Virus record (IMG/VR): IMGVR_UViG_3300027917_000050
Span: 1 to 59,724 of that record
Strand: one strand, 5' to 3'
From: a virus
Length of the DNA: 59,724 nucleotides
Shown one piece after another: positions 4,901 through 43,969 of this stretch. Both the position numbers and the translations under genes were made by a program. Each line of letters opens with the position of its first letter. Position 1 is the first letter of the stretch. A model generated the notes under the pieces. It saw nothing but the letters and a program-made list of their open reading frames with translations. It was not told where the DNA came from and made no database searches.

Positions 4901-7900
4901 GATTTAGACTTATTAACATTTTTAAAATATCCTCTAAGAATCTGTTTTGCTCTTGACTCAATATCGTTTATTCTCCTTCCAAGTTCTTGATATGAGGTAT
5001 AACCAATATCAGCAGATTTGAATTCATATATTAAACTTGTCATTTCGTCGTCTAATGCATTAACTCCATTTCTCGCATTCAAAACGTCTCTATTTCTTTT
5101 ATTGAGTTCTTCCAATCCAATTGCTTCCCTACTTGCCATTCCATCAATAAACACATTTGCTATAGATCTAAACTCAAGAAGAAGATTTCCACCAGCAGAA
5201 TCTAAATCGTAAAGTCTTGTCTTAACAATTTGCTGTCCACTTGGACGTTCCTTTAAAATCATATCATAATATGGAGACTGGGGAAGTATTTCTCCAGAAG
5301 GGGTGGTTGTATGTTCCCATGCCCTGAGTTCAGCGTTTCCCCAGGATTTTTTATTAAAAATCTTGTTGATACTTCTTGGCATAATTTTATCATAAAACTT
5401 CCTTAAAAATTGTCCGCCAATCTTAATATCATTTAATCTCTGATCTCCGTTTTTTTGTTTTTCTGAATTTAGCAATTTATCTGCTGATGTCTTTCCCATA
5501 TAGTCGCGAAGATCTGTAGGATTAACATTTTCATATTCTGTTATTAATTCTCCACCAGTGCTGTATGCTTTTAACTTTTTACTTTCCTCATTATATACAA
5601 CATGCCCTATAGATTGAAGAAGACCATTCCATCGGTCTACTTGCTGCTGACCAGTTGTCATTCCAATCATATCGTGACCAGATTCTGCAGCATACCGAAC
5701 CATCCTGCGGTATGCCTGGATGAAATATCTTTCTATAAGTGGCGAGGTTGGTATTGGTTGAATTTCTGACTGAATATAAATCATTGCATCTCGTTCTTTA
5801 TCAAATTCTTTTTCTCTATATCGATCAGTTCCATATTTATCCTTAACAGGCTGACCACTCTTATCAAATATAACAAACTTATCTGAAGATTTTTTTGAAA
5901 AGGATTCTATTGGAGATGCAGATAATATTTTATTTCCTCTCATAACAACCCAAAGTTCTTCATTTTGATCTACGGGAGTCTTTCTTTTTGGTTCTGAATA
6001 TCTTTTGTATAGTTTAGTAAGCCTATCAAATTCTTCCTTTGTAATTTCATTGTCTTTGTACATTCTGAGATATTCTGTATTTTTTTCAATACTATAAAAC
6101 ACTGCATCTGCAAGATTTCTATTTTTATATCTTTCGACCATTTCGCGATAAGTTGTTTTTTTGGCCTTGCCCTTTTTCCCTATTTTATAGTCTTTCGCAA
6201 ATCCCTTTGACGAACCTTGCTGAATCCAGTCACTTTGAATTTCTTGGATATAGAGAATCTTTTTTTGTCCTGTTTTTGTTTTCTCATACCTTGTATCAAA
6301 TCGAATCCAATAAACAACATCAACGTCATCACCCCAATGAGTTGAATTTCTCCAACCCGTCTTTGGTCTTTCGACTATTTTAACTTCTGAAGATGCCTCA
6401 TTAAGAGCAAGGATTTTATCCATAAATCCACTCTGGACACCCATAACCGTCGAAGCATATCTATCCCAAAGAATCGAAGGGTCTGGTAATAAAGAAGATG
6501 GTTCTATTTCTTTTTTTATAATATACTGATCTTTTCTTGATTTACCTCTCCTCGCAATCCACGCTTCTGCTTTTTCTCTGGTAGAAAATTCTCCCCACGC
6601 ATCTCCTGTATCTGCAACATTAACTGAACCAGGTTTTGTGTATACTTTCCAAAAGACAGTTCCTTCCTTTTCATATTTTTTCTTATATTCATTTAAAATC
6701 TTTAAGTCTTCTTCAAGCATGTTTTCCGTAAGATCAAAAACCTTATCAGCATACTTCACCCTTAATTCTCTATCTTTTGGTCTGCTCAACTCTTTCTTTA
6801 TAGAATCTTCGTATTTATAGAACTCTATCATGTTGCCAATTTCTTCATATTTCCCAAGTGTTATAAGTTGATCTGCCTGCATGTATAATTCTCTTCTAAG
6901 GCCTAATGCCGTTGAAAATTTATTATAAACTTCTTGAAATCCATGCTTTAATTCTTTTAACTTAGCTTCTCCTGCATGAGTAGGTGACTTTATCATTACC
7001 TGAACCTCGCGGTAATTTTCTCCGCCAGGAATATTATAAGATTTGCTTTTCCATTTTACCGGAAATCTCTCTACATCTTTAAGAGACTCTGGTTCTCCCT
7101 CAACCAAAGTTCCGGTTGGTGGAGTTTTGGAATATCCAGTGCTTTCTTCAAACTGGTCTCTAAAATCATAATAATATTCTGCCCAATCATAACCTTCAAG
7201 TGCTTGTTCAGCCGATCTTTGAATTACATCTTCTGCATCTTCATTTAGCCAAGAATACGAAAAGTCCCTAACTCCTCCACCATGTGGAAACCAGTCTGAA
7301 CCAGAATAATCACTCGGACCTGCATATTGTAGATTGTTCCATTCTGTGCTATATATAGATAATATAGGATTGTCGAGTCCACCCTCCCAATCAGATAGAA
7401 ACTTGTAGAAGTTAGGATAATTCTCTTTTATATGCTTATTCAAAAGATCTAAATATTCTCTGTGTGTTATTAAATCGTTTTCTACTTTTTTATAAAGTTC
7501 TCCGTTTTCTGCAATAAGATCATCTGGAATTCTTTCTCCAAATTTTTCTGTATATTTTTTGCTAAACCATTTTAATTGATCAAAAGAAAAATCAAAAAAT
7601 ACTTTATCTATAACATCTTTGTCAGACTCTGTAAAATTACCACCCCACAAACCTGTTTTATGAATATCTTCAATATCTGGAACGTCAAATATTTCATAAT
7701 TTTCCAATTCGCTATCATATGCACTATCCCAGAAATTTTCTTTTAACCAATCTGAAAATCGTTCCTCGTAATCTTCTTCTGAAAGTGATTCTCCAGACAC
7801 TGAGTCCATTCTCCATTTTTCTACAAATTGAATTGCGTATTCATCGTAAGCATTGAGAACGTCTTGTACTGTCAATCTAACATCATCATCAACGGTGTCC

Positions 7901-10900: not shown

Positions 10901-13071
10901 AACCACTGACGGTATTCGGCCAGGACCGTTCTATTTGTGGCAACTGCATGTCGGCCCTTCGCGCTCGGAAGATATTTCTTCGTCGAGTATCCCGGTGGCC
11001 GGACAGACGGGTCCTGCAGCCACTGTCTTTCTGATATCGGTGGTTCCTGAGATGCAGGTTTGGTTTTATCTGCAGTCTTTGCCCATACCTTGAATTCGCG
11101 AGGTGTCATCTTGACGACATCCATTATTTGTGCTGTATTTCCATATGTCGTCTTGTGTGCTGTTCTCGCCTGTCCGACAGTTCTGAATCCCATCATTGCT
11201 TTGTGCTCGTCGAACTTTCCGCCTATCGACTGATCGACAACAAAAATATGATCTGATATTTCACCTTCAGGTCCATAGATTACATCGACCTGGTCACCAT
11301 CGGCACCTTCAACTCCGCGAATATATCCAACGGGATGTTTTACTTTAATTCCTGGAACCCTCTCAACTCCTTTTGGTGTTTCAATAACTCCTTCAAAACC
11401 GTGTATTTTTATTCTTCCCTTTTTATATGTTCCCGATTCGATTTGTGCCGGGGTAGGTATGACCGTCTCTTTTTGCGCGATTTCGAGATCTTTTTGATAT
11501 TTGATTTTCGCCTCTTTTTTTCTTGTAACAATATCAGTTTTTGCAAGAGCAATTCTTTCTTCTGGTCGCATTTTGGTGTCTTTGATAATGTCCTCGACAT
11601 AACCTTTTTCAGACTCTGATAAAGTTGCGACATAATCATTGAAATCTTTCTCCGTAATTTCTTTGGTCGTTTTTTCTCCAAGGAATCCTCGTTTTTGTTC
11701 TGCCTTTTTTATTACCTGCTGAGTTCTTTCCATCTCAGCCTGCGTTATCTCTCTTGTTACAGGTTCAACAATTGCGCCACCGGCATAAACAGGTCTACCC
11801 TTTTCCTCTATTGCTTTCGCAGTTTCCATGGTAGTAAGTTCTGCCTTTGCCTGAGGGCCGAATCCACCCCTTGTCGGAGGAGGTGGTTGTGGTCGAGGTG
11901 CTGCCTCTGGACCATATACTGCAGGCGCGCCAAGTTCCATTCCTGGATAAGGTGCAACCGTTTCTGATACAGGAGTACCCACTTCTGGAGCAACAGGTTG
12001 TGGGGTTTCTTTCTGAACTCTATTGATAAGATCTCTTGCCCAACTTCTCGTTCCTGGTTTTGCAGTTGTTTCTGTTTCACCTGTTAATATATCGGTAGGA
12101 CCTTCCTCGCCTGCTATCTTTCTCGCTACTTGTTTTTTTCCGACACCACCTAATGCACCAAACGGAGCAGCAACGAGACCTTCATAGATACCTTCTTTTG
12201 TTGCTTTTACAATTTTATCCCAGGTAACTTCTTCTTTTTTTGCCCATAATTCTGCAGCAAGTTCAGGATATTTCTGAACCCATTCAGTTCCAAACTCTGT
12301 GAGCGCGCCACCAGCAAGTCTCTGAAATAGAGGACCACCAAGTTTTGTAACAATGAACTCTAATTGAATTGCCTCAAGAGGTGCCTGCGCTGCAGCATTT
12401 GCAATTGCAGCAATTAACGCTCTCCTCGGATTAACACCTTCTCTTACAAGCTGCTCGTAAAATGGACCGGCAATTTGAACGCTCATCCATCCCATTGTAG
12501 CAGCCTTTCCACCTAACATATACGAAGCATATTGCGTTGCAATCTGAGGACCCATCTGATAAACGTCCTCAAGGTATTTAACGATTCCAGGCTTTGCCTC
12601 TTTTCTTTTTTGATAATCAAGATCTTCCCTTAACCAGTCACCCTGTGAAAATTTTCTTAGAGTTCCTTCCTTATCCATCTGATTTTTGAATGCATCTGAT
12701 ACTGCCTGGCCTAACTGTAGTGGTGCCTTAACAACACCCTTATATCCTTCGATTACAGGCTTAGAAAATTCTGGAAGTGTACCCTCCTTCATTCCCATTG
12801 CTCTCTCTGTTAGCCGGGCCTGTGGGAATGGTTCTGCCCCAGTTATAAATTGAAGAAATGTGCCGGGGCCGGGTGGCAATGCACCAATGACCTTCTTGAC
12901 AGGACCCTGTTCCATATATTTTTGTTCCGGTGTCTTCGGTGCAGGTTGCTCCCATTCAATATCCTGGTTATCACCCTGGGTATCATCCCATTGGATATTC
13001 GAATCCTGTGCAGCTTGTGGTGCTGCCGGAGATTGGATTTCGTCATCCCATTCTATTGGATTATTTGGCAT
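1903..13071 (-). CDS. Giant polyvalent ejected virion protein (about 3,722 residues)
   Basis: One uninterrupted frame of 11.2 kb, nearly a fifth of the window. The likely start is the ATG at 13071, which overlaps the end of the upstream gene by 11 bases and has GAGGA ahead; in-frame TTG/ATG codons 33-39 bases upstream have no better site. Visible modules, in order: a low-complexity N-terminus; hydrophobic Ala/Gly helices around 170-300; an inorganic-pyrophosphatase-like domain (about 540-645, with IHGFEGVIETPKG and VFVVDQ); a zinc metallopeptidase motif HEIIH near 854; an acyltransferase-like block with DDGDLQKLF and DPYLPAYYGMFGWEE (about 1,420-1,545); an EIQSDW block near 2,277 with TTGQQQ near 2,471; and a C-terminal LPD38-like region starting near GPAFRIKNFLRDT (3,238). 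These are hallmarks of the 'polyvalent proteins' described in phages and conjugative elements, thought to be packaged and injected with the DNA. Position after the nozzle and internal virion genes fits an ejection protein. Confidence 0.85.
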   Translation of the reverse strand: MPNNPIEWDDEIQSPAAPQAAQDSNIQWDDTQGDNQDIEWEQPAPKTPEQKYMEQGPVKKVIGALPPGPGTFLQFITGAEPFPQARLTERAMGMKEGTLPEFSKPVIEGYKGVVKAPLQLGQAVSDAFKNQMDKEGTLRKFSQGDWLREDLDYQKRKEAKPGIVKYLEDVYQMGPQIATQYASYMLGGKAATMGWMSVQIAGPFYEQLVREGVNPRRALIAAIANAAAQAPLEAIQLEFIVTKLGGPLFQRLAGGALTEFGTEWVQKYPELAAELWAKKEEVTWDKIVKATKEGIYEGLVAAPFGALGGVGKKQVARKIAGEEGPTDILTGETETTAKPGTRSWARDLINRVQKETPQPVAPEVGTPVSETVAPYPGMELGAPAVYGPEAAPRPQPPPPTRGGFGPQAKAELTTMETAKAIEEKGRPVYAGGAIVEPVTREITQAEMERTQQVIKKAEQKRGFLGEKTTKEITEKDFNDYVATLSESEKGYVEDIIKDTKMRPEERIALAKTDIVTRKKEAKIKYQKDLEIAQKETVIPTPAQIESGTYKKGRIKIHGFEGVIETPKGVERVPGIKVKHPVGYIRGVEGADGDQVDVIYGPEGEISDHIFVVDQSIGGKFDEHKAMMGFRTVGQARTAHKTTYGNTAQIMDVVKMTPREFKVWAKTADKTKPASQEPPISERQWLQDPSVRPPGYSTKKYLPSAKGRHAVATNRTVLAEYRQWLRNMGYSRPSPTQKQEAPIRPKKKDTRSLPTRALSKHIMDIQANIRKKEALLPESKKTKGEIMTAKDEDFQDHTDLNKEQKLTMWLAKVFGVDLSFYVGPRMGGSGVFVEGPNTISIHAETDKPYTFVLMHEIIHNMEAEDPKTWNELNRYLWSVKNDIEFGLFADAINESLPPNKQLPLNPFLKRNQNKHTVWHEFMAEGIAHRVFSEEFWNKLQKRNPSLFSRFVAYITKVFNKIKEKMSATRTQNLAYFKDFEGKTMDEITKALTAFAERKVRAKQIQAYESIVAAAMRYKGKIYTGVTHAEAFQKIEDEYGEKINWNQIEDDGFLTNKGKFISRDEAQLVAAWADQIQDIDQERGYLVSEALRQRKDVVIPRKELIQQKDIKIKDKDLKPGKLPERTNKKISRALATEQKYTLKDIAKLRLSNKWPKFVNTEKEYSEMALKAAEANIKHKTWMENHNQLLMDTLGDDWQIFNAILAVTSPMAPINQNAGWAAQTYLYLLGLRDKPGAMFPNDLIKTKLNEWLAGKFAENMGKSENQKVQEWTRALLGDPNATTNDRWMYRAFFGEYTKKGDIQFTTMENVAARHMLTRVAKRLSGLGKEKWTISQVQSSIWAYIKSRIEGWDLKKQEDYFTAMNTKLKMLGNMSAVEYLESKVDPSLLKQGPLMELLDLKTIEFSPISELEKKRLYHIGEHGPEISKVDKPEDLKRYISELKKSKYSYVLTIPTYEELKRAVDRGAEVYMTDDRSAGYVIDDGDLQKLFSNSEIPGLGSVLLMDAMAKGARTLDCFDPYLPAYYGMFGWEETERSKFNPEYAPDNWPKSAGTPDVVFMKLNDSIYKELQNVKSERKKIQIIRERIGGFKNNWERITPHVERVSVQVGAKVTGKAGESVRIGVDQETRIRNTEELARSGLEKVGELIQQRDIVIPNEDIMEITEADEIRPAWYSDFKNYVDSKQFRDNIGKGGASAKKIKMLLTQAMRSKAKPFREEEWEWSSIGTWLDTVDDDVRLTVQDVLNAYDEYAIQFVEKWRMDSVSGESLSEEDYEERFSDWLKENFWDSAYDSELENYEIFDVPDIEDIHKTGLWGGNFTESDKDVIDKVFFDFSFDQLKWFSKKYTEKFGERIPDDLIAENGELYKKVENDLITHREYLDLLNKHIKENYPNFYKFLSDWEGGLDNPILSIYSTEWNNLQYAGPSDYSGSDWFPHGGGVRDFSYSWLNEDAEDVIQRSAEQALEGYDWAEYYYDFRDQFEESTGYSKTPPTGTLVEGEPESLKDVERFPVKWKSKSYNIPGGENYREVQVMIKSPTHAGEAKLKELKHGFQEVYNKFSTALGLRRELYMQADQLITLGKYEEIGNMIEFYKYEDSIKKELSRPKDRELRVKYADKVFDLTENMLEEDLKILNEYKKKYEKEGTVFWKVYTKPGSVNVADTGDAWGEFSTREKAEAWIARRGKSRKDQYIIKKEIEPSSLLPDPSILWDRYASTVMGVQSGFMDKILALNEASSEVKIVERPKTGWRNSTHWGDDVDVVYWIRFDTRYEKTKTGQKKILYIQEIQSDWIQQGSSKGFAKDYKIGKKGKAKKTTYREMVERYKNRNLADAVFYSIEKNTEYLRMYKDNEITKEEFDRLTKLYKRYSEPKRKTPVDQNEELWVVMRGNKILSASPIESFSKKSSDKFVIFDKSGQPVKDKYGTDRYREKEFDKERDAMIYIQSEIQPIPTSPLIERYFIQAYRRMVRYAAESGHDMIGMTTGQQQVDRWNGLLQSIGHVVYNEESKKLKAYSTGGELITEYENVNPTDLRDYMGKTSADKLLNSEKQKNGDQRLNDIKIGGQFLRKFYDKIMPRSINKIFNKKSWGNAELRAWEHTTTPSGEILPQSPYYDMILKERPSGQQIVKTRLYDLDSAGGNLLLEFRSIANVFIDGMASREAIGLEELNKRNRDVLNARNGVNALDDEMTSLIYEFKSADIGYTSYQELGRRINDIESRAKQILRGYFKNVNKSKSGQPIRIDYYIEPLAEKFDMYLLYAKQYSDAFLEASGEFKKEKFVVEGVEEIDNINKIPDMLRNNIPVYVESRNKEAIGLINRMTDPMKNVAAAKEQGFKLYTIKPNQAISESIATWIMPITEKMRSKALTVGFPIFNTDLKSEIPAVTKKVIENKIGPAGQTMLQRIKASLDDFRRNFVTRNIDRLHPIKQWLGETKAYMLARGIPGIQSTVQAFLEHGKLRFDKSGAIITDEVNNGFLHWYDQLGNDAEKFFYWVVAKRAQSLKKENREFLFDDKDIKAILSWVGEKPTDSKYASWEDINTEFKEFNNNILDIAQRSGLIDKGFRDYMANQGYYVPFYRVLTDPETRVLFTQNKLRPKEIGAQIRKLSGSELPIGDPVENMLKNWSHLISESAHNVARRSAFNEASRRKLVAYQKEDDKGKLVDVPLVEQVSWADTVRFKKIGKEKGAPVFISKKDGMPVLQFRAAGKSIYFKVNDTELFNALGQMDVQSFDNIWSKIGGVAKMGLTYGATFGPAFRIKNFLRDTLHTFQISKGFVPLWDSIAGLWKVWTNNPDYIQFMASGMAFGGSYVREGDASGLHKYVKSIVKKEGQGALRRIISTPMDALNWWKEFGEGFENAARVQLYSRLKKKGLSHLEAAFNARDLMDFNMSGNGTAVRVLISTVPFMNARIQGLYKMGRAAVDNPTSFFTKSAMIAMASMLLWWLNKDDDRYKELEDFEKFAWYHFWIGDKHFRIPKPFETGVLFSTSVEMAGDVITGNEELNHVMDYINHAFLETLAMNPTPQAIRPIWEQVANKTFFTGRPIEPMGMKYREPGERFDPWNSETLRFAGQAINVSPKRMEHLVRGYLSVFGSFILGLSDIMVRSIADIDRPTKRLDDYPFIGAFVREADNPRYTKYMSSFFDALNEARKVTAQLNAYNREGDFKKAQEYARKKQSEIRMAPRLNMTYKQISDISTEMKRTWTNPNMTPDQKKAHIDKLTNMRNRLVKQVYDQILRRK

Positions 13072-14263
13072 AAGGTGTTCCGTCCTCGTATACAGTCCTT
13101 CCATCTGCAAGTTGAAATACCCGTCTTCCAGTTTTTTTGTCCGTTCCCTGCCTTACAACATTTTGATTTCCAGTGGAAGCCGGTGGATTATATTGTGGTC
13201 CACTTGTGGGCTGCTTTTTATTTTGTGGTCCACTTTCTTCAGATTTTTTCATTTGTGCTAATGAATCTAAAAGATTATTTATATTTTCAATATACTCCTG
13301 GACCTTATATTGCATATATTCTGACGAGGAATTAAAATATTCCCCGGTATCTCCCATCATTGGTTTTGCGTTTTGTTTTTCAAGTTCATCCCACATTTTC
13401 TGTGCATCGTCAGCAACCTTTCCTATCCTCTGTTGTGAAAGAAAGTTCTGCTTTGCATCTGCAGCATAGGACCAGTCTCCAGTTTCATAGGCATTAAAAA
13501 GTGCCTGAGTATCTGCATCTTTGAAATCCTTTTTAAGTTTTGAAATGATTTCTCTTTGATTCTCAAAACCCTGCCTGAGAAGATTATTAAATATTTGATC
13601 AGTTTCTTGTTCGGTTGGATATCGTCCATTTTCATTATAAAACTGTGCCATTGCATCATCTATAAGAGTAAATGCATGTGTCATAGGATATCGTTTGTCT
13701 ATCGGATTCGTTACATTCTTGATATCTGTAATTGCCTTTGACTGTGAAATTCTTTCCTGTGCCTGTCTTATAGGATGCGCCTCTCCCATAACCATTCCCT
13801 GATCGGTCTGCTGCCATTCAGGATAAACATACGACCTTACTTCCTGGCCGGGACCTACCTGGCCACCCGGCATTGGCATTTCACCCTGGGCAATATCTGC
13901 CTGGCCACCCTGTATATTCGTAAACGTAGGAACCGGAAGTTGATCTTCTGGAACTCCTCTTTGGCTTAAAACATTTCTTAACTCGCGAATTTGTGCCAGG
14001 TATTCCTTTATGCTTCTTCTATTTCCAGGCTGAAGTTCTGGACCCTTTGCGGTTTCACCAAGGGTATCCTGTGCAGCAACGCCTGCCGTTCCTGTAGCAG
14101 ATATATCAGACAATGGAGCAACCGGGGGTTTCGGTTGATAATGAGGTTGTCCCATAAATTGCTGATGAGATGGAATTAATCGATTGGGAACTTCCATCGT
14201 ATTCCTTGCCGGATTTAATCTCATTGCATAGTATGGGTCGTTTGGATTGTATGGAGTAACCAT
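13061..14263 (-). CDS. Probable internal virion protein, Pro/Gln-rich
   Basis: A 400-residue protein with an AAGGAG ribosome site, directly upstream of and overlapping the giant ejected protein. The N-terminal 170 residues are rich in Pro, Gly and Gln and probably disordered; residues 190-330 look helical and charged (YNENGRYPTEQETDQIFNNL and a run of Lys/Asp helices). The C-terminus carries a short strand pair (RRVFQLADGRTVYEDGTPYAK) of a kind used as an interaction tag. No enzyme motif is seen. By order (nozzle, small proteins, this, giant protein) it resembles the internal core proteins of T7-like virions, but the family is not recognised. Confidence 0.5.
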   Translation of the reverse strand: MVTPYNPNDPYYAMRLNPARNTMEVPNRLIPSHQQFMGQPHYQPKPPVAPLSDISATGTAGVAAQDTLGETAKGPELQPGNRRSIKEYLAQIRELRNVLSQRGVPEDQLPVPTFTNIQGGQADIAQGEMPMPGGQVGPGQEVRSYVYPEWQQTDQGMVMGEAHPIRQAQERISQSKAITDIKNVTNPIDKRYPMTHAFTLIDDAMAQFYNENGRYPTEQETDQIFNNLLRQGFENQREIISKLKKDFKDADTQALFNAYETGDWSYAADAKQNFLSQQRIGKVADDAQKMWDELEKQNAKPMMGDTGEYFNSSSEYMQYKVQEYIENINNLLDSLAQMKKSEESGPQNKKQPTSGPQYNPPASTGNQNVVRQGTDKKTGRRVFQLADGRTVYEDGTPYAK

Positions 14264-21255: not shown

Positions 21256-22179
21256 TTAACTGGATTTGCGGATGTACAAGTCAATCAACGACTCGGTCTT
21301 CAGCGTGTTCCAACCGAATACATTGAGACCGCGAACCAGGGTACCAAAGGTACTTTCGGCGCGGAGACTTTCCATCTTAGTCATCTGGGCAGCAAAAGAT
21401 ATTGCCGACTTGTGACCAAACATGGAGTGATATGCCGTGTATCCACCATCAGATGCGGTGGAAATCAGGTTTGACTTGTAAAGCGTAAAGGTGTCGATGA
21501 CACCCAGTCGGCCATTGCGGAGAATGCTCTGACCGTCGCCGGACAGTGATGCATCCTTAAGATCAGACTTGAGGATCATGCCGCAGGCCCAGGCCGGGAG
21601 CAGACCCCAACGGTCTGTCTCAGGAACGTTCTGCTCGTCGAGGACGGTTCCACAGTCAACGATGACTTCAAGGATGTTCGCTTTCGTAAGCGCAAGGATG
21701 TCGCCTGTGGTTCCAAGATCGATGTCGCCGGATATCGCACCAGCACTTGTGCCTTTATTAGAGGCATGGGCATCGGAATAGACATCGGCCAAGAAATCGG
21801 TGTCGACGGAAATTTTCATCTGCTGAGACGCATCACGACTCCAGGAGTCCATGAGCGCGATATCGGTTTGATGCTTATCGATATCATCACAGACGAAATT
21901 AAAGTATTTTGCCCTGTCAATGGGCAATTCTACGTTCGGGGCTTCAGGACGTTGAATCTGAAGACTCTGTCCCTTGACGTAATTGCGGATAGCTATATCC
22001 GGCACCGTACGAATAATGACCTTGTCGCCTTGATCTTTGATCTCGCCTTCGTAGTCGGTATTCGAAATGGCTGCAATTACGGTTGCCTCATAAAATTTAA
22101 CCAAAAGTTTTCCCGACCAAATTTCGGGAATGAAAGTACCGGAATATTGCGGATGACCGGCTGCAACTGAAACTGCCAT
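21256..22179 (-). CDS. Major capsid protein
   Basis: A 307-residue protein with AGGAGG upstream, immediately after the scaffold gene. The N-terminal QYSGTFIPEIWSGKLLVKFYE is the typical extended N-arm entry of HK97-fold capsid proteins, followed by ISNTDYEGEIKDQGDKVIIRTVPDI, a common pattern in such proteins. The rest alternates helices and strands with a late HKSAISFAAQMTKMES segment often seen near the C-terminal A-domain. Size and the order portal, scaffold, capsid, adaptor agree. It forms the head shell. An 11-residue stretch of its N-arm recurs in a small protein next to terS (see findings). Confidence 0.85.
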   Translation of the reverse strand: MAVSVAAGHPQYSGTFIPEIWSGKLLVKFYEATVIAAISNTDYEGEIKDQGDKVIIRTVPDIAIRNYVKGQSLQIQRPEAPNVELPIDRAKYFNFVCDDIDKHQTDIALMDSWSRDASQQMKISVDTDFLADVYSDAHASNKGTSAGAISGDIDLGTTGDILALTKANILEVIVDCGTVLDEQNVPETDRWGLLPAWACGMILKSDLKDASLSGDGQSILRNGRLGVIDTFTLYKSNLISTASDGGYTAYHSMFGHKSAISFAAQMTKMESLRAESTFGTLVRGLNVFGWNTLKTESLIDLYIRKSS

Positions 22180-28268: not shown

Positions 28269-28431
28269 TTTTTAAGTCCTCCAATGTTGGGATTCGATTA
28301 ATACTTATGGATGGATGGTAATATTTTTGTTTAAAAAACAGTTTCTTACAATTAAAACATCGATACCATCCATTTCCTTCGTGATCTAATATCCCCCGGT
28401 GTTTACATTTACTTAATTGCTGCCTGTTCAA
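28261..28431 (-). CDS. Small zinc-knuckle protein, TTG start (56 residues)
   Basis: Read from a TTG at 28431 within the end of the portal gene (23-base overlap), with AGG nine bases upstream; no ATG is available in frame after the portal stop. The core CKHRGILDHEGNGWYRCFNCKKLFF carries C.H and CxxC ligands. Its stop overlaps the next start by 8 bases, which supports translation. A longer start inside the portal gene is possible but would be an out-of-frame overlap. Confidence 0.5.
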   Translation of the reverse strand: MNRQQLSKCKHRGILDHEGNGWYRCFNCKKLFFKQKYYHPSISINRIPTLEDLKNG

Positions 28432-30580
28432 TATCTGATGCCTGTATCGGCGGAAGTGCTCCACCTGGTTCTCCTCCACCAACCGGGGTAGGACCAGGCA
28501 TTGCACCAGGTCCAGTCGGCGCAGGCATTCCACCTCCACCCGGCTGCATTATTTGCGCCTGTCGTTGCATCATTGACATTTCAATTCTGGCTGCCAGATC
28601 CTGTTCGTCCGGTACCGGGTTCTCTGATAGCTTGAGACCGTTCGCAACCTCTCGCAGAACCCTGGCCCGGCCTTCAAGTCCGATTATCTGCATATCGACA
28701 TCGTTGTTCGTGATACCCAGGAATTCCTGTCTCCTGGCCTGCAGCATATCCTGGACTACCAGATATTCAGATGCCCTGGCAATAATATTGATGTCTCCCT
28801 TATACTCGACATCGTCATCATACATGACAGTGTGAATCCAGGTATTGTAGACAACCTTCTTTATAACCTTGTCGTCGATGTCCATAATGGCATCTTTGAT
28901 AATCTTGCTGGCTGCATTCAAAAGCATCGATAGACCGTGTGCAGTCTTTCCTGCGCCACCTGCCACACCACCCAGACCCTGTTCGTATGCCGGTACACCT
29001 AACTGCTCACCGGCCTGCGTAAAGAAGTGCTTATAGCCTTCCATTAAAGTGCTGGTTACCATCTGTGGCTGGTAGAAATGAATAGCCTCCCTGTTCCTTC
29101 CCAACATATCAGACTTGGTGAACCACATCTTCCAAGGATAAATCCTTTGCGGATTTTCAGCGGCATCAAGTCTATCCCGCTGGACTTCAACTTGTGGGCC
29201 GGATGCAATGGCAGCATTATTAATTATTGCCCTGGCGAATGCATTACAACTTCTTTGGCAATCCTCCATAATTTCGGGTGGTGCTTCACCCCATACGGAA
29301 TCATTTGAGGAATCGAAAGATGCGGAGTAATAAGGTTTTTCACCGAACGGGTCCTCGTTTATTCGTGCCATTATAACCCACCGACCCACTAAAATACAAA
29401 TCGCCGGAACCGGATCTGCCGGATTCGGGATCTTTTTCGCATCAACCCCCCACTGAATCAGGAGATGACCAGGTATGTCTCCATAAAACTCTAAGGCCTC
29501 AATGATTGCCTCAGGGTCCTCTTGCTCATTCGGCCTCCCCTCAAGGTTCGCACGTTCCTGGTCGGTCCACAACCAGTCCTTCAGCGCGCCTGACTGATAT
29601 TGCATTAGAACTTCGTTAATTGCCGGGCTATTGAATCCAGGGACACCCCTCATAGCAAGAAGATCACGCTGTCGATATCGATGTCTTTGGATAAGATAGC
29701 CATCCTGTACCGACATGGCACCAGGAGCAAGATAGATATCAAATGGAGACACCCTCTCCCATGTACGCACATACTGCCACTTTAGAACCGGACGGACTGC
29801 CCCAGTCTCGTCTTCCTCCCAGGCCAATTTCTTTTTTCGCCTTACGATAGGACCTTTAATGAAAGCTGCCGGGTATGTCGCAAAATCCTTTATGAACCTC
29901 GACATCTCCTTGTAGAATCCGCCTTCATGGAAGTGGTCATCTATCCTATTTTCAATTCGGTCTGCCTCCTTTGTGGCAATCGACCTGATTTCCTGCTCAT
30001 GTGCCTTCCTGAGTTCCTCGACTCTCTCATCTATCGATTCGGGAGTTATCTTATCGGGTCCGAATAAATCAGAAACTTCCTGGACTTCTCTGGCCACCTG
30101 CTCACGAATTCTATCCATTGCATCATTTGGCATATCAGGATATGGTGTCGGGTCCAGAGACCATGGTTTGTCGCCTGCCGGAATCATAACGTCCCTGACA
30201 AGTGCTTCAATTGTCCGGCACTTCGCATTTGTCAACATCATAAATATCTGAGACCCACCAAATTTTTGTATAGCAGCAAGGTCCCTTGGATCATAGATAC
30301 CCTTCCTCTGACGGAAACATTTTAAGAGGCGTTCCTCAATCTGAAACTTTGTGGTCTTTGCAGCATCCCACCGGGTCCTTACAAACGCAGAAAGACTTGC
30401 GATTTCAGGACGATATTGCATTGCATCGGCCTTCTCGCGTTCCCGGTTTTCGTTTGCAATCATCTCGGTATTGCTCAAGACCCTCATCAAAGATGACTGA
30501 TTTGCGACTGCCCCATAACCCCCCGACGCATCTTTAGATGCCACAAATGTAGTCGGATCATAGGTCGCAGGAATAGGCAT
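28409..30580 (-). CDS. Portal protein
   Basis: 723 residues, with GGAG upstream of the ATG at 30580. The N-terminal part contains FRQRKGIYDPRDLAAIQKFGGSQIFMMLTNAKCRTIEALVRDVM, the helical pattern of podovirus portal proteins; WQYVRTWERVSPFDIYLAPGA and PYYSASFDSSNDSVWGEAPPE are typical wing/stem portal segments. The last 60 residues are Gly/Pro-rich and probably disordered. Length fits the 700-residue podovirus portals. It forms the dodecameric vertex for DNA packaging and tail docking, and lies in the expected order ahead of scaffold and capsid. Confidence 0.85.
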   Translation of the reverse strand: MPIPATYDPTTFVASKDASGGYGAVANQSSLMRVLSNTEMIANENREREKADAMQYRPEIASLSAFVRTRWDAAKTTKFQIEERLLKCFRQRKGIYDPRDLAAIQKFGGSQIFMMLTNAKCRTIEALVRDVMIPAGDKPWSLDPTPYPDMPNDAMDRIREQVAREVQEVSDLFGPDKITPESIDERVEELRKAHEQEIRSIATKEADRIENRIDDHFHEGGFYKEMSRFIKDFATYPAAFIKGPIVRRKKKLAWEEDETGAVRPVLKWQYVRTWERVSPFDIYLAPGAMSVQDGYLIQRHRYRQRDLLAMRGVPGFNSPAINEVLMQYQSGALKDWLWTDQERANLEGRPNEQEDPEAIIEALEFYGDIPGHLLIQWGVDAKKIPNPADPVPAICILVGRWVIMARINEDPFGEKPYYSASFDSSNDSVWGEAPPEIMEDCQRSCNAFARAIINNAAIASGPQVEVQRDRLDAAENPQRIYPWKMWFTKSDMLGRNREAIHFYQPQMVTSTLMEGYKHFFTQAGEQLGVPAYEQGLGGVAGGAGKTAHGLSMLLNAASKIIKDAIMDIDDKVIKKVVYNTWIHTVMYDDDVEYKGDINIIARASEYLVVQDMLQARRQEFLGITNNDVDMQIIGLEGRARVLREVANGLKLSENPVPDEQDLAARIEMSMMQRQAQIMQPGGGGMPAPTGPGAMPGPTPVGGGEPGGALPPIQASDIEQAAIK

Positions 30581-32662: not shown

Positions 32663-32857
32663 CTATTTAGCAAGGTTTTTATACCGTTCGCAATAATGCC
32701 TCTTTGGGCAGGTCTCACAGAATACTCTGTGCAATCTGGCCCATGCCCGGCTGCTGCTCCAGTCCGAACTCCTCATCCAGTCGGCCCGGCCCGACACCCT
32801 GGCATAGAATATACGACATAGTATTATACCAATTAGTATACCAATGATTAAGTCCAT
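32663..32857 (-). CDS. Small membrane-anchored Cys protein
   Basis: 64 residues, start overlapping the end of terL by 10 bases. A hydrophobic N-terminal helix (MDLIIGILIGIILCRIFY) is followed by a basic, Trp-rich linker and a CETCPKRHYC cluster that may bind metal. Likely in the inner membrane with the soluble part in the cytoplasm (positive-inside). Confidence 0.5.
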   Translation of the reverse strand: MDLIIGILIGIILCRIFYARVSGRADWMRSSDWSSSRAWARLHRVFCETCPKRHYCERYKNLAK

Positions 32858-34548
32858 CCGCTTGCATCCTGTCCCTGCTGTTCAACTTTCTGCCTGACCT
32901 GGATATTCATTGAAGGTCCCTCGTCCCAGTTGTGAACACCATCTATCATGAGCGACATCAACGCAAAGGCATCAGCACCATGCTGGTTGTCGTCCTCCAG
33001 CGGAGTATCTCTCCAGCATCCTAACTTGTCGTTCCATTGCTTTCTGAAATTGTCAAGTCTGTCAATACCCTTTTCGCATCTCTCCAGGTCGAACCAGCAT
33101 AATGGGATTGTCCTCCGTACTGTCTCTCTCTGCATCGCCTTCGAAACCTTTGGACCGACCTCAAACTTAATGCCATGTTCCTCCGCCCATTTGAGTCGAG
33201 TTTTGTTGGTAGTGTATTCATGAACCGTGATATCGTGAGGAGCGCACCAACGTCCGTATCTGTATGGTTTTCCATTGATATCCCGAATGTCTTTGCAATA
33301 GTCAGCATAATGCATAAGACCTTCTCCTGAGTTCTCGTAATAGTCGATAACATGGATCTCCCTCCCAACCTTTTGAATGTACCATATAACGTTGAAGTCG
33401 TCCAGGCCCAGGTCCCAGAATGTATATACCGGAAGTCCTTCTTTGTGTGGTACGCTACAAATCCTACCGGCCTTGCGCGCATCTGACATTTGCCGGGCAT
33501 AGTATGAACCTTCGATAGATTGATGAAAGGCCTCGTCGGGTGTCATGGGGTGTTCCCGGTACATGAATTCACCCTGAGTCTTCTCCTTCGAAACATACCA
33601 CCACTTGAATTCATTCGATAGCTTCTTGCCCAGGATTCCCTCGACCTTGTCGAAATACTTTTCAAGTCTCTGTGGTATCGGGACCGGGATGCTTACCCGG
33701 TTCTCTGCCTTCTCGTGAGCACCAAAGAAATGGAACTTGTAGTCCAGTTCAGATAGCTGCCTTTTTTCCTTCTGGGCATCCCTGGCCTCCTTTATCATCT
33801 CATAGTATCGACCCTCCCGGCCCTCTGCGGTTGATTCAATTGTGACAATCTGACCAGGGTGTATCGTATTGAGCGTTCCTGTGATAACTTCTTCGGCCTT
33901 TGCCGGAAACTTAGCACACATCTTACCAAATTCAGAAATATGGACCATTTGGTAGGTGCCAGAACGTCCACTGGTCGTAACTCGTATAGATGACCCATTG
34001 TCGAAAGAAAGTACACCGACTGCATCCTGTCTTGCTTTGAGTCCTGCTTTAAGCCAGTTCGGTAGATTATCATGGGCGAATTTTACCTTCTTGACAAAGA
34101 AGTCTTTGGCATCCTCTTTGTTGTGCGCGATGATAGCGCAGTGGGTGTTTGAATTGAATAGAGACTGGTCCAGTTGAAGGATGCACATCTCGGTGGTAAT
34201 CCCATGCTGCCGGGACTTTAGAACGATGTTACAGTACCACATCCCCAGGAACAGCAGCTTCTGGGCATAACGCATCCTGAAGACATGAACAACACCTGCC
34301 TCATCGGTTACCTTGTACAGGTTGTCCAGTCTCCAACGCCTGGAGGCCAAACGCTTAACGAGGAGTTCCCTCGCCTCCTCTATTGAGAGGTTCTTGAACT
34401 CCTCGCCTAATTGCTCCCAGTCTTCCCTGGAGACGTTAAGATCAGTCTGTGTGCTGCTTGAGGAAGTTTGAAAGGGATTCGATATCTGGAACGAATCGTT
34501 TTCGGGAGTGCTCGTCGCCTTTTCGCTTATAGTAGATGATGAATCCAT
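32848..34548 (-). CDS. terL: Terminase large subunit
   Basis: 566 residues. Motor part: KSRQHGITT near 113-121 (Walker A of terminases), AIIAHNKEDAKDFF, MVHISEFGK (Walker B with Glu) and VTIESTAEGREG (coupling motif). Nuclease part: YTFWDLGLDDFNVIWY with acidic residues, later acidic positions around APHDITVHEY and GADAFALM. It powers DNA packaging at the portal and cuts the concatemer. Length fits the family. The only start, at 34548, overlaps the previous gene by 107 bases and has no clear ribosome site, so translation may be coupled. Confidence 0.93.
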   Translation of the reverse strand: MDSSSTISEKATSTPENDSFQISNPFQTSSSSTQTDLNVSREDWEQLGEEFKNLSIEEARELLVKRLASRRWRLDNLYKVTDEAGVVHVFRMRYAQKLLFLGMWYCNIVLKSRQHGITTEMCILQLDQSLFNSNTHCAIIAHNKEDAKDFFVKKVKFAHDNLPNWLKAGLKARQDAVGVLSFDNGSSIRVTTSGRSGTYQMVHISEFGKMCAKFPAKAEEVITGTLNTIHPGQIVTIESTAEGREGRYYEMIKEARDAQKEKRQLSELDYKFHFFGAHEKAENRVSIPVPIPQRLEKYFDKVEGILGKKLSNEFKWWYVSKEKTQGEFMYREHPMTPDEAFHQSIEGSYYARQMSDARKAGRICSVPHKEGLPVYTFWDLGLDDFNVIWYIQKVGREIHVIDYYENSGEGLMHYADYCKDIRDINGKPYRYGRWCAPHDITVHEYTTNKTRLKWAEEHGIKFEVGPKVSKAMQRETVRRTIPLCWFDLERCEKGIDRLDNFRKQWNDKLGCWRDTPLEDDNQHGADAFALMSLMIDGVHNWDEGPSMNIQVRQKVEQQGQDASGWT

Positions 34549-34864
34549 TGTCGATTTTGTCGATGTAGAAAGATTTTAGGTGAAAGCATAGCTTTGGAAG
34601 GACACCTTCACCAACCTTCATTACATTGCCGGGAACGATTGAATTTGATCTTTGATGAATATCATCCCCCATACATAATTCTGTAAATAAACACTCCTTG
34701 CACAGATATACCGAACTACAATCGCTCTCGTCTGGGCATTCATCACATATTATACCCCTTGACTCGCAGTCCGCGCATGGAGGTTTTTTGCGAAGGTCTC
34801 CGTCCGCCCCTAACCGATACATTACTTCTTTGTCTGAACATCCACCAAACTCTTTTATTTCCAT
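34442..34864 (-). CDS. Cysteine-rich hypothetical protein upstream of terL
   Basis: 140 residues with a GGGGGG site. The first 65 residues carry nine cysteines in CADCESRGIICDEC, CSSVYLCKEC and neighbours, likely two zinc sites; the rest is alpha/beta (FHLKSFYIDKIDNGFIIYYKRK). It overlaps terL by 107 bases. Role unknown. Confidence 0.5.
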   Translation of the reverse strand: MEIKEFGGCSDKEVMYRLGADGDLRKKPPCADCESRGIICDECPDESDCSSVYLCKECLFTELCMGDDIHQRSNSIVPGNVMKVGEGVLPKLCFHLKSFYIDKIDNGFIIYYKRKGDEHSRKRFVPDIESLSNFLKQHTD

Positions 34865-34873
34865 GATCCCCCC

Positions 34874-35035
34874 CTAAACAACGTCTTCGGTTATATCATC
34901 GACCTCGTGCTCCACCTCCCAGGCCATCTCAGAGACGGCACCCTGGAATGATATGCTCGTGGTCGCAAGGCAGGCCTCCAGATACTCGTCGAGCAACTTA
35001 TAGAGATCTGCCTCTATTTCTTTAATTGCCCTCAA
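34874..35035 (-). CDS. Small acidic helical protein, TTG start (53 residues)
   Basis: From a TTG at 35035 overlapping the previous stop by 14 bases. It reads RAIKEIEADLYKLLDEYLEA and ends in a strongly acidic tail (WEVEHEVDDITEDVV). No other start is available in frame except a rare ATT. The frame fills a spacer that otherwise would be empty, but with no exact ribosome site the call is moderate. Confidence 0.4.
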   Translation of the reverse strand: MRAIKEIEADLYKLLDEYLEACLATTSISFQGAVSEMAWEVEHEVDDITEDVV

Positions 35036-35294
35036 CGCCTAACCACTTCTTGATCTTGGACGTTACCGGAATGAACAGCCTGTCAATATTATTGGTCGCA
35101 CAGGCCACCGAATGATTCTCAAGTTCTTCCCGTATCATAATTGTATTGAGTCCGTATGGTCTGACTGCATCACATATCGGAGTAAAATTAAAAATAGCAT
35201 GGAATGCCTGTAATTCATCTTCCGATTCGAATGTTATGGTTAAATCAACGGGATTGAAATTAGTCGGAATGGAATTGCTTGAAATTACTCTCAT
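35022..35294 (-). CDS. Hypothetical protein downstream of bS21
   Basis: 90 residues; its start overlaps the bS21 stop by 4 bases. The region FNPVDLTITFESEDELQAFHAIFNF is a pattern found in several small phage proteins with a two-strand, one-helix core. It is part of the tightly coupled terS-bS21-terL group. Function unknown. Confidence 0.5.
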   Translation of the reverse strand: MRVISSNSIPTNFNPVDLTITFESEDELQAFHAIFNFTPICDAVRPYGLNTIMIREELENHSVACATNNIDRLFIPVTSKIKKWLGVEGN

Positions 35295-35530
35295 TTTTTA
35301 TTCCTTTCATTCTTTTGTATTTTTGCTTTTCTTATGGCTGCAGCCTTCTTGCGTCTCCGCCTGCTGCCCTTGCTCTCGAAATATGAACGTTGCTTGAGTT
35401 CTCTCATGAGGCCCAGGGATGACAGCCTCTGGTTGAATTCGCGTATAGCAGCCTCAAGGTTTCGTTCTCCCATCGGCCCAAACACAGGAGGCCGGACGGT
35501 AACCACCGGGTTATCAAATATTCTTCTCAT
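35291..35530 (-). CDS. rpsU: Ribosomal protein bS21 homologue
   Basis: 79 residues. VVTVRPPVFG leads to ERNLEAAIREFNQRLSSLGL, then MRELKQRSYFESKGSRRRRK and a basic tail, which follows bS21 (short N-terminal strand, helix with ALRRFKR pattern, RRREFYEKP-type turn, Arg/Lys-rich helix). bS21 sits at the platform of the small subunit next to the mRNA Shine-Dalgarno helix. Phage copies are known mostly from uncultivated viruses and may replace host bS21 to bias translation. Its ATG overlaps the previous stop (ATGA), between terS and terL. Confidence 0.85.
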   Translation of the reverse strand: MRRIFDNPVVTVRPPVFGPMGERNLEAAIREFNQRLSSLGLMRELKQRSYFESKGSRRRRKKAAAIRKAKIQKNERNKK

Positions 35531-35850
35531 GCCACACTCCTTAAGATATCAAGAATTGTTTCTGCGTCCGGCTTAGATCCTGCCAGGTCGGGATGAAGTT
35601 CATCGGTAATCTTCATTGGATGCCTGTGCTCACCTATATTGATATACATACATCTGTCCTCTGCAACAAAGCATCGATCTGCGAATACCTTAAACCTCTC
35701 CATATCAATATTTGCCATCGTAATTAACCATGCCTGCCTTATTAATTGTCTGATATCCATTGTCTGATTAATTTCCCATATCTCAGGAACAAAGGTTCCG
35801 GTATACTGTTTAGTCGCAGTCTTGCGGTAGCTTCCCCCTATTAAGCCCAT
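35527..35850 (-). CDS. Small protein carrying a capsid N-arm-like peptide
   Basis: About 107 residues from an ATG at 35850 that overlaps terS by 41 bases. Residues 15-25 read QYTGTFVPEIW, matching QYSGTFIPEIW of the major capsid protein at 9 of 11 positions. The rest (RQLIRQAWLITMANIDMERF then VAEDRCMYINIGEHRHPMKITDELH) does not resemble a capsid. Starts at 35760 or 35730 would drop the motif, but its codons show mainly synonymous differences from the capsid gene, which argues that this frame is used. Function unknown. Confidence 0.5.
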   Translation of the reverse strand: MGLIGGSYRKTATKQYTGTFVPEIWEINQTMDIRQLIRQAWLITMANIDMERFKVFADRCFVAEDRCMYINIGEHRHPMKITDELHPDLAGSKPDAETILDILRSVA

Positions 35851-36397
35851 CAATCTTTGCCAGAATGACCCTAATATCGAAAAACTGATCTCCACCCTTA
35901 CCCTCCTCGGTTATAATGCCCAGGTTCTTTGCCATACGACCCAATGCCTGGCCCTTATCGTTGAACTGGATCTCCTTGATCACCCTTACAATTTCGGTTT
36001 TAGGCGTACCGTCCTTATTGAGTTCTCCTGTCTGCCTAACCACATCCTCATATTTGACAGATTTAATGGCAGCCTGGAGATCCTCCGGCCAATCCTGCAC
36101 TTCTTTGATCATTCCATTCTCGTCGAGCATTCCAGGAATCCGGTGTGTGGCCAAGAGAGAATCCTCATGAAGGATATCATTTGCAGTCGCAGTCCACTTC
36201 TCAACAACCTTCTCTGTGGACTTCTCGGCCAATTCTTCAAGGTAGGCTTTGACCTTGGGGTTCTTTAAGAGTTTGCTGGATTCACTATTCGCCGTTGACT
36301 CTTTGCATTTGTATACTTTTCGGTAACTTGCAGTACCATTTCCAGTCAGAAAGTATTCATCGGCAAACTTCTTATGTTTTACAGGTAACCTGATCAT
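35810..36397 (-). CDS. terS: Terminase small subunit
   Basis: 195 residues, with GAGGAAT ahead of the ATG. The N-terminal KHKKFADEYFLTGNGTASYRKVYKC with LLKNPKVKAYLEEL is the helix-turn-helix region of the Terminase_2 family that binds the packaging site. A central coiled region and an oligomerisation part follow. It recognises phage DNA and hands it to terL. The gap to terL is filled by five small overlapping genes including bS21. Confidence 0.9.
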   Translation of the reverse strand: MIRLPVKHKKFADEYFLTGNGTASYRKVYKCKESTANSESSKLLKNPKVKAYLEELAEKSTEKVVEKWTATANDILHEDSLLATHRIPGMLDENGMIKEVQDWPEDLQAAIKSVKYEDVVRQTGELNKDGTPKTEIVRVIKEIQFNDKGQALGRMAKNLGIITEEGKGGDQFFDIRVILAKIDGLNRGKLPQDCD

Positions 36398-38520: not shown

Positions 38521-39282
38521 ATGTACAAAGTAAACAACAAAATCAACGATCTAATAAAACGTGGCGCGCTGTTCGTAATAAATCATTCCGGTGGAAAAGA
38601 TTCCCAAGCAATGATGATCAAGATTACCAAACTGGTGCCGAAAGAACAAATCCTGGTCATCCATGCTGACCTGCCCGGTGCAGATTGGCCGGGAACCTGG
38701 GACCATGTCCAGGCTACTTGCCGTGGATATGAAACTGTCCAGGTTGTCGCAGTTAAAACCCTATTTGAAATGGCGCGCAAGCGTGGAATGTGGCCCAGTC
38801 CTAAATATCGTCAATGTACCTCTGATCTCAAAAGAGGCCCAATTGAAAAAGCAATCAGGCACTATATAAAAAATAATGATCTATCCGGCCTGGTCGTAAA
38901 CTGCATGGGCATTCGATCTGAAGAATCATACAGTCGCGCAAATGCTGCTGAGTTCAAGTTCAATAAAAGAAACTCTAAGGCCGGACGCGAGTGGTATGAC
39001 TGGCTGCCAATAAAAGATTGGACAACCAATCGGGTCTTTGCCGAAATAAAATCCAATGGCCAGGAACCCCATTGGGCATATGCAGCCGGTATGGAAAGAT
39101 TATCCTGCTGCTTCTGCATTATGGCATCTGAGAAAGATCTAAAAACTGCAGCCCGTCTGGTGCCGAACATCTATCGCGAATTCGTTAAGGTCGAGAAGGA
39201 AATTAACTTCTCGTTTGTAATGCCGAAAAAAGGCGAGGCCCCCAGGTTTCTGGATGAAATTACCGGAGTTTCTATCGATTAA
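38521..39282 (+). CDS. PAPS reductase/DndC-family protein
   Basis: 253 residues. SGGKDSQ at 23-29 is the PP-loop that binds nucleotide; YRQCTSDLKRGPIEK, CMGIRSEES and a LSCCFCIM cysteine cluster are the expected later family motifs. Members reduce PAPS or take part in sulfur transfer, including DNA phosphorothioation (DndC). Phage copies are common and their substrate is usually unknown. Here there are no other dnd genes or thiolation partners. Alone on the plus strand with its own strong promoter and AAGG site, it has the features of a 'moron'. Its 3' end meets the lipoprotein gene head-on with a 4-base overlap. Confidence 0.8.
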   Translation: MYKVNNKINDLIKRGALFVINHSGGKDSQAMMIKITKLVPKEQILVIHADLPGADWPGTWDHVQATCRGYETVQVVAVKTLFEMARKRGMWPSPKYRQCTSDLKRGPIEKAIRHYIKNNDLSGLVVNCMGIRSEESYSRANAAEFKFNKRNSKAGREWYDWLPIKDWTTNRVFAEIKSNGQEPHWAYAAGMERLSCCFCIMASEKDLKTAARLVPNIYREFVKVEKEINFSFVMPKKGEAPRFLDEITGVSID

Positions 39283-40859: not shown

Positions 40860-41492
40860 TCATTTGTCAAGGATTTTACGGTAAAATTTCCTTATAACAT
40901 CGTTGACGTATGCATATGTGGCATCTACCTGGTCTTCTATCTGTTTTCTGCTTAGTAACGCACCGAAAAACAATATAATAATTATATCCTTTGTTTGCGC
41001 CATATCAACATTGCGAAATTTATGTTGAATTTTTTTCCACAATTCAATACGTTCCATTCTTTCTTTAATTTCTTTCTTTAGCTTTTTATGCCTATCATTA
41101 GCAGCCTGAGATGAAATCTTTAATGCCCTCGCAGTATTAGCAAGGGTTTTTCCCTGGTGATAATAGTGCTCTGCGAATTCCATTGCCTTCTCTGGAATAT
41201 TCAAACTCTCTACAAAATTCCATGCAAGTTTAGATAGTTCAATATCTGGTTTTACCATTGTCTTGTTTATCGGATTTACAAAAATCATATCAACAAATGA
41301 ATTTCCATTCATGAAGTCTTCCATATTCTGCAGAACCGTATATTTTAGATTAAGACCAACATGGTCCTGAGATATCCACTTTTCAATTTCGTCGCAAGGT
41401 TTCCGGCATATAGAATACTTCGGACATTCTGGACAAGGTTTCGGTTTCGGCCCTCTTACGAGGTCTTCTGACCTGAACTGTTTTCTTCGCAT
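40860..41492 (-). CDS. Sigma-region-4-like regulator with Cys cluster
   Basis: About 210 residues from the ATG at 41492, which lies just past the previous stop with AGAAGG upstream; starts 45 and 87 bases further upstream lie inside that gene. The N-terminus has CPECPKYSICRKPC (four ligands). PEKAMEFAEHYYHQGKTLANTARALKISSQAANDRHKKLKKE reads as a sigma region 4-like helix-turn-helix. C-terminal helices follow. Such proteins might recognise phage promoters, making this a second candidate specificity factor. Confidence 0.55.
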   Translation of the reverse strand: MRRKQFRSEDLVRGPKPKPCPECPKYSICRKPCDEIEKWISQDHVGLNLKYTVLQNMEDFMNGNSFVDMIFVNPINKTMVKPDIELSKLAWNFVESLNIPEKAMEFAEHYYHQGKTLANTARALKISSQAANDRHKKLKKEIKERMERIELWKKIQHKFRNVDMAQTKDIIIILFFGALLSRKQIEDQVDATYAYVNDVIRKFYRKILDK

Positions 41493-41499
41493 AGGTATT

Positions 41500-41934
41500 T
41501 TATTGCCTTCTTCGCATTTTTGCTTTGATGTATTCATGCATATACCCTTGAATATTAAAATAAAGTCCACAGAGAGCATCCTCTATGCCATCCCTGGACT
41601 TATAACCCTCATGTTCTTTCCACAGATCTAAGAAATGTCTGAACATGGACTCAATGTAAACATCCAACGGCATCCCCTTCTTCCAGTTCGATGCTGAACG
41701 CACACTCCCATCGGACTGTATCCGGTGCTTGGTCATGTAATTACCAAACATCTCTATTACAAGTGGACTCAAAAAACCACTGTATTCGTTTTTATTTTCC
41801 GAGGTGTCCCTGGTTGCCCCGGTTGCGAATTCACGTTTTACACCATCATCGAATTCCGTATAAATTCTTTCGCCTTTATGGTATATCTCCACAGATTCAA
41901 AATCTCCAACAAATTGATCTTGCTGTAATTCCAT
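41500..41934 (-). CDS. dATP/dGTP diphosphohydrolase N-terminal-type domain protein
   Basis: 144 residues. ATGATRDTSENKNEYSGFLSPLVIEMFG, then RSASNWKKGMPLDVYIESMFRHFLDLW and DGIEDALCGLYFNIQGYM show the family pattern (often called dATP/dGTP diphosphohydrolase N-terminal or DUF5664). In some phages the domain belongs to enzymes that change the nucleotide pool, including those using diaminopurine, but most stand-alone copies are uncharacterised. No purZ-type synthetase is seen here. Role in dNTP balance is a guess. Confidence 0.6.
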   Translation of the reverse strand: MELQQDQFVGDFESVEIYHKGERIYTEFDDGVKREFATGATRDTSENKNEYSGFLSPLVIEMFGNYMTKHRIQSDGSVRSASNWKKGMPLDVYIESMFRHFLDLWKEHEGYKSRDGIEDALCGLYFNIQGYMHEYIKAKMRRRQ

Positions 41935-43059: not shown

Positions 43060-43461
43060 TCAAAAGGGGATATCATCGTCCTCGGTTACCCCTCCATAGG
43101 CCTCGGCCTGGTAATCGGCCTTGCTCTTGCCACCTCCGCCCCCAAGAAACTTAATTATATGGGCCTTGATTTCGGTGATATAATGCTTTTCACCGTCATC
43201 AGTTTCCCAGGAACGGTATTGGATAATTCCTTCGATATACACCTGCTTTCCTTTGTGAAGGAACTCCTGGGCAATCTCTGCGTTCCTGTTAAAGGCAACT
43301 ATTCGGTGCCAGGCTGTTAATGATTTCTTTTCCCCGGTCTGCTTATCTTTCCAGGTATCTGATGTTGCAACACTGAAATTTGCCACCGGGGTACCATTTG
43401 TTGTATAACGGATTTCTGGATCTGCTCCCAGATTTCCCACTAAAATTACCTTGTTAATCAT
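43060..43461 (-). CDS. ssb: Single-stranded DNA-binding protein
   Basis: 133 residues. [55 protein letters not shown] and [16 protein letters not shown] form the OB fold of bacterial-type SSB, with a Gly-rich linker and the acidic end DDDIPF that recruits host replication proteins. It protects single strands and links phage replication to the host machine. It overlaps the sigma-factor gene by 8 bases. Confidence 0.97.
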
Positions 43462-43969
43462 TTTTAAATTCCTCCTTCATTTTGTGTGTTTTCATTCTCT
43501 CGCATCCATGTTTATAAAGCAGACTGTAACTCTGGTGGGTTTTACCATGCTCCCTGGCCATTTGATAGGCGTTCTTGTCTTCAAGGACCATTTCCTTTAT
43601 AACTTCCGCCTGCATCGGTGTTGCCCTATGGAGTGCCTTGTAAAACAAATCCTTTGTTACAACACTTGCTTCATGACTATTATAAGAATAGCAGAAATCC
43701 TCGAAATTATCAATCTTTTTTTCGTGTTGATTTAAAGCGTCTCCGCTATTCATTCCGAAATAATTACGATAGACACGGTGCCTAATCTTCCATGCAGCCC
43801 AACCCTTAAAAGACGGGGATCTATTAGGATCATAATCGTGCGCTGCCTCGCAGAGTCCTTCTCTGCCGGATTGTATTGCATCGTCGTCGGGGAGTCGGCC
43901 ACATTTCCTGCAAAGTTTTGCGGTATAGCTGTCGCAAAATTTGATATCGTTTTCTGTAATCTCGTACAT
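43454..43969 (-). CDS. Phage sigma-70-like factor
   Basis: 171 residues with AAGGGGG ahead. Region 2 signature [25 protein letters not shown] and [18 protein letters not shown]; region 4 around [34 protein letters not shown]. No regions 1 or 3 are evident. Such minimal sigma proteins bind core RNA polymerase and direct it to phage promoters. It is expressed before the late genes and is a candidate to read the TTGCAC-class or the weak -10 late promoters. Confidence 0.75.

Follow-up and report, generated by a model that had tools for sequence, protein, structure and literature searches.

The window, by which we mean the whole 59,724-base IMG/VR record analyzed here, encodes on its minus strand a 79-aa homologue of ribosomal protein bS21 (rpsU-like ORF, 35291-35530). 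The translated product is MRRIFDNPVVTVRPPVFGPMGERNLEAAIREFNQRLSSLGLMRELKQRSYFESKGSRRRRKKAAAIRKAKIQKNERNKK. It matches the Pfam family Ribosomal_S21 (PF01165) with 41.1 bits (cut-off 27; E 1.5e-10), the NCBIfam equivalog TIGR00030 S21p with 41.6 bits (cut-off 28.95; E 8e-11), and PHROG 21469, "ribosomal protein S21" (phrog_21469; E 5.8e-9). Almost all of the PDB chains matched at E<=1 (36 of 37) are bS21 or its organelle versions. Because three profile libraries and the PDB chains agree, the match is far above chance. A preliminary description of this DNA had recognized a bS21 pattern in the 79 residues and had left the assignment to stand or fall by a profile search. That search returned matches above the curated cut-offs, and at the level of sequence the ORF is confirmed as encoding a bS21 homologue.

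The predicted protein is small and very basic (29% K+R, pI about 11.8), as expected for the bS21 family. AlphaFold predicts helices at residues 25-39, 41-50, and 54-78 with moderate confidence (mean pLDDT 77), and a fold search with this model, the query being a small helical protein, gave no match. Core residues of ribosomal bS21 are retained (A28, R30, G40, E52, R58, K61, and A65). The ORF is intact and accounts for the only PF01165 match in the whole record. Given that genes for TerS, TerL, portal, capsid, and replication proteins flank it on the same contig, the gene sits in phage sequence and is not host contamination.

A Shine-Dalgarno (SD) sequence, AAGGAG, is located seven bases ahead of the bS21 ATG (35533-35543, minus strand; sequence TTAAGGAGTGTGGCATG). 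The gene overlaps both of its neighbors by the tetranucleotide ATGA. Specifically, the copy at 35527-35530 provides the TGA of the upstream ORF and the ATG of bS21, and that at 35291-35294 provides the TGA of bS21 and the ATG of the downstream ORF. The preliminary description had placed bS21 in an overlap between terS-side and terL-side genes; the ATGA overlaps are present on both sides, but the direct neighbors are small orphan ORFs. The upstream ORF (35527-35895) could encode up to 122 aa from a GTG at 35895, and a later start is likely because the frame overlaps terS. Downstream there are ORFs of 90 aa (35022-35294), for which no relatives were found in IMG/VR, 53 aa (34874-35035), and 140 aa (34442-34864), the last of these Cys-rich. 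All of the ORFs flanking bS21 (34442-35895, minus strand) are without a family match in Pfam, PHROGs, and NCBIfam.

The bS21 gene does lie within the packaging gene block, as had been proposed, with terS and terL flanking it on the same strand. The terminase small subunit, TerS (35810-36397, minus; PF03592, 5.1e-20; phrog_51, 2.6e-19), ends about 280 nt upstream of bS21. The large subunit, TerL (32848-34548, minus; phrog_5989), starts about 740 nt downstream and was recognized by tblastn to annotated terminases of isolate phages (42-45% over 83-94% of the length, E to 2e-120). The minus-strand order is terS, an orphan ORF, bS21, three orphan ORFs, and terL, followed by genes for the portal or head-tail connector (28409-30580, minus; phrog_332, 1.2e-48; SU10_portal PF23899) and the major capsid protein (21256-22179, minus; phrog_267, 2.8e-54). 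The GC3 of bS21 (0.51) is close to that of TerS (0.52) and TerL (0.56), suggesting that bS21 is adapted to the phage block. Based on the overlaps and spacing, we infer that terS, bS21, and terL are carried on one transcript.

Other phage genes further along the genome encode a DnaB helicase, a polymerase-exonuclease-like protein, SSB, and a RecT-like protein. No integrase family occurs among the matches listed (the best 25 of 41 PHROG families). A 3735-aa protein (1903-13110, minus) has inorganic pyrophosphatase (PF18823) and LPD38 (PF18857) domains and is perhaps a giant polyvalent protein that is ejected with the DNA. Two loci, 43454-43969 and 40860-41579 (both minus), gave a match to Sigma-70 region 2 (2.6e-7) and a weak one to a sigma-factor PHROG; late genes may be read with a sigma factor encoded by the phage itself. 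Among the few plus-strand genes is one for a PAPS reductase-family protein (38521-39282); a 63% homologue of this protein is found within the terS-terL interval of a related phage (G038; L111 4437-5252).

We found no close relative of the bS21 protein among GenBank phage records at E<=0.01. At E<=10 the sole real match is to the bS21 of phage HTVC008M (E about 1, 45% over 29 residues); a hit to Burkholderia phage Maja (E 0.7) was judged by its gene context to be a chance match and was rejected. A seeded scan of IMG/VR yielded 80 bS21 loci for analysis. The window protein and the best of the IMG/VR phage bS21 proteins (18 of 38 examined) have in common the motif Y[YF]ES[KR]G[TSA]..R, and every bacterial bS21 examined has EKP[ST] at the ES[KR]G place. 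The window protein clusters with the ES[KR]G phage proteins (92/89, and 95/90 with a second set) in trees of 64-65 columns, of which the motif is a part, in which the bacteria represent one phylum plus five PDB segments and the window has the longest terminal branch (2.4-2.75). Topology tests rejected trees in which the window protein was forced together with bacterial bS21 (AU p 0.002) and did not reject those in which it was placed with the ES[KR]G phages (p 0.18).

On the bacterial side, 398 genomes from a single phylum were sampled, and 300 of them gave a bS21 match of a similar, weak level, mostly of 29-43% identity. The first of two genome scans, built on aligned phage bS21 sequences, yielded no matches; the second, whose seeds and patterns favor betaproteobacterial bS21, accordingly recovered mainly that type, so bacterial sampling in the tree is narrow. 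The preliminary description had suggested that a phylogeny with bacterial bS21 could name the host group. Because the window protein groups with phages and not with the sampled bacteria, the host is not nameable from it, and given so few columns, so long a branch, and such evenly weak bacterial matches we rejected this use of the tree. A fair reading is that the protein is a very divergent phage-type bS21, possibly gained by transfer between phages. Its closest counterparts among phage bS21 genes adjoin genes for Hsp20, ClpS, endolysin, IMPDH-like, and bilin/heme proteins. No terminase is among the families listed for the 70 neighbors scanned, so the place between terS and terL seems not to have been inherited with the gene.

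Some indication of host type comes from the start signals. An SD core of at least four bases in the right place precedes 30 of 58 hand-picked gene starts, compared with 16% of random same-strand positions, and this excess suggests that the phage relies on SD pairing. Several starts without an SD core carry a G-rich stretch instead. As bS21 adjoins the SD/anti-SD site, the SD-rich starts suggest that such pairing matters in the host. In Bacteroidetes, bS21 uses an aromatic residue to hide the anti-SD (Tyr54 in F. johnsoniae), and Bacteroidetes phages retain it in their own bS21 (PMC9723584). There is no aromatic residue at this position in the window protein, which is without Y, F, W, or H after residue 51. 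Given the SD-rich starts and the missing anti-SD-stacking aromatic, a Bacteroidetes host and a Bacteroidetes-type bS21 action appear unlikely for this phage.

Related phages were sought in IMG/VR. TerL as a probe found no relative; the capsid protein identified 262, and we retained 80 of these (51-89% identity). The nearest capsids from cultured phages are those of Rhizobium phages RHph_TM (48%). PF01165 was found in none of the 80 capsid relatives, many of which are fragments that may stop short of the relevant place. It was also not found, in the interval or elsewhere, in those with a complete terS-terL interval (G007, with two copies, G023, G010, and G038). Given this absence, bS21 looks like a recent or sporadic acquisition in this phage. 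The terS-terL interval measures 4.4-7.2 kb in relatives that have the whole of it, versus 1.26 kb in the window.

Within this interval, five tRNA genes occur in G023, 11 in the second copy of G007, and 11 in G008; the intervals of G010 and G038 hold other cargo and no tRNA. Single tRNA genes or arrays (1-11 across all carriers) lie directly upstream of terL at L108 1471-2454, L109 1959-3210, and L112 3796-5047. They also occur just upstream of terL as one gene in L009 (1144-1219), three in L018 (9-656), five in L070 (4025-4504), five in L077 (360-820), and six in L082 (4048-4604). No tRNA was found in the available stretch upstream of terL in L024, L030, L045, L060, L062, L069, L073, and L086, elsewhere in the stretches read of G023 and G008, or, at the normal threshold, in the window. 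Overall, at least five relative lineages have 1-11 tRNA genes before terL, and the stretch before terL in this clade is a variable cargo site, often with tRNA genes. No earlier report of tRNA arrays at this site of the relatives was found in the literature searched. However, some other phages are known to have tRNA genes close to their terminase genes, so we do not claim a tRNA site upstream of terL as categorically new. One 103-kb relative (L013/G007; IMGVR_UViG_3300028840_004913) has two terS-terL pairs (terL at 35734 and 94352), which match two separate records, G023 and G008; this contig looks like two phages joined in assembly.

The tRNA arrays in the same interval of relatives suggest that the site repeatedly takes translation genes. 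A tentative and rather doubtful extension is that this clade reserves the interval upstream of terL for such genes, with tRNA arrays in most carriers and bS21 in the window. Alternative means of supporting or retuning late translation would then interchange at one locus and be expressed with the packaging genes; a single bS21 example cannot establish the replacement of one by the other.

What might the phage gain from this gene? bS21 is an exchangeable 30S protein situated by the anti-SD and is required for initiation on natural mRNAs (PMC6375957). The bS21 of HTVC008M is taken up into 70S ribosomes of E. coli, and purifying selection acts on viral genes for ribosomal proteins, bS21 included (PMC6375957). 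We consider it probable that the window gene encodes a functional phage bS21, carried as cargo between terS and terL of an environmental tailed phage, that enters the 30S subunit in place of host bS21 and biases or sustains initiation late in infection. The protein would be made from the packaging and virion transcript, coupled to its neighbors via the ATGA overlaps. It would then take the exchangeable bS21 site on the host 30S subunit, beside the anti-SD, displacing host bS21. Initiation could thereby be tilted towards late phage mRNAs, or maintained when host bS21 is limiting or blocked. Arguing against this account are the strong divergence of the protein, the poor translation by E. coli ribosomes with a phage bS21, and the different gene organization in the Bacteroidetes phages. 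Action on ribosomes while virion proteins are made, which the preliminary description had suggested from the gene's position, is plausible by analogy: lake-phage bS21 is transcribed with late structural genes, and late action accords with these expression data from other phages (PMC9723584).

Alternatively, phage bS21 could serve host takeover more than it boosts phage mRNAs, poisoning or slowing translation by joining ribosomes and hampering their initiation on host mRNAs. In vitro, GFP synthesis by E. coli ribosomes with HTVC008M bS21 falls to ~5% (PMC6375957), a level that fits inhibition as well as bias, and such proteins may instead impair host translation. The window protein is more divergent still and has an altered N-terminal segment, VTVRPPVFGPMGERNL, before helix 1. 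However, a gene in the packaging block is expected to be late, whereas genes for host shut-off tend to be expressed early. The defect in the published test arose in a non-native host, and mRNAs of this phage have ordinary SD sequences, so a general block would harm the phage too. On these grounds, a takeover function is unlikely.

Considered improbable as well is that bS21 is a moron gene without a specific role, passed from phage to phage by recombination, whose benefit would be small at best, through extra supply of bS21. Such a gene could be missing from all 80 capsid relatives, have orphans as its small neighbors, and occupy an interval that varies among relatives, all of which we observe here. 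Yet the reading frame is unbroken, has an SD of its own, and is linked to the adjacent frames by a translational overlap at each end; purifying selection acts on viral bS21 genes in general (PMC6375957); and relatives repeatedly have translation cargo in this position. An extra-ribosomal role, in which an RNA-binding or virion-packaged protein has lost its ribosome function, would be consistent with the location in the packaging block and the long branch, and virion carriage has been raised as a possibility (PMC9723584). Retention of the ribosomal core residues and a match exceeding the TIGR00030 equivalog cut-off make it very improbable.

A functional bS21 in this genome would extend to a mid-size phage of ~60 kb what was first seen in large myoviruses, and here the gene is physically joined to the packaging genes. 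Relatives with tRNAs, bS21, or neither at the same locus offer a test bed for whether ribosomal proteins and tRNAs are alternative late-translation aids. More broadly, a phylogeny of phage bS21 can be a misleading guide to the host because the protein may stem from other phages.

Phage bS21 as such, its clustering with structural genes, late expression, and entry into E. coli ribosomes are already known (PMC6375957, PMC9723584). Viral bS21 is mostly aquatic, in agreement with the earlier statement that it occurs mainly in environmental phages (PMC6375957). It lies close to structural genes in 388 of 900 phages, with terL at most ten genes away in 78 (PMC9723584). Pelagibacter phage HTVC008M (KC465899) is likewise a tailed environmental phage with a single bS21 of the same family. 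However, it is T4-like and 147 kb in length, with bS21 beside CobS and an Hsp-like gene, whereas the window phage is about 60 kb and has bS21 at the terS-terL site. The freshwater Bacteroidetes phages also have bS21 near terL, portal, and capsid genes, and a late-function model has been proposed for them (PMC9723584). These are myoviruses of 293-331 kb with the aromatic at the Tyr54 position, whereas the window protein has no aromatic after F51. For the Bacteroidetes phages examined, the region of structural genes does not form a single operon and bS21 is on the strand opposite to it (PMC9723584); in the window bS21 shares its strand with terS and terL and overlaps its neighbors. The ES[KR]G-type proteins of IMG/VR phages (L197-L228) share the motif and the tree grouping with the window protein, but belong to large phages in which the bS21 neighbors are Hsp20, ClpS, endolysin, IMPDH-like dehydrogenase, and bilin/heme genes instead of terminase genes. 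Particular to this mid-size phage is the doubly overlapped bS21 at the terS-terL site, in a clade whose other members examined lack a bS21 match and in several cases have tRNA arrays there.
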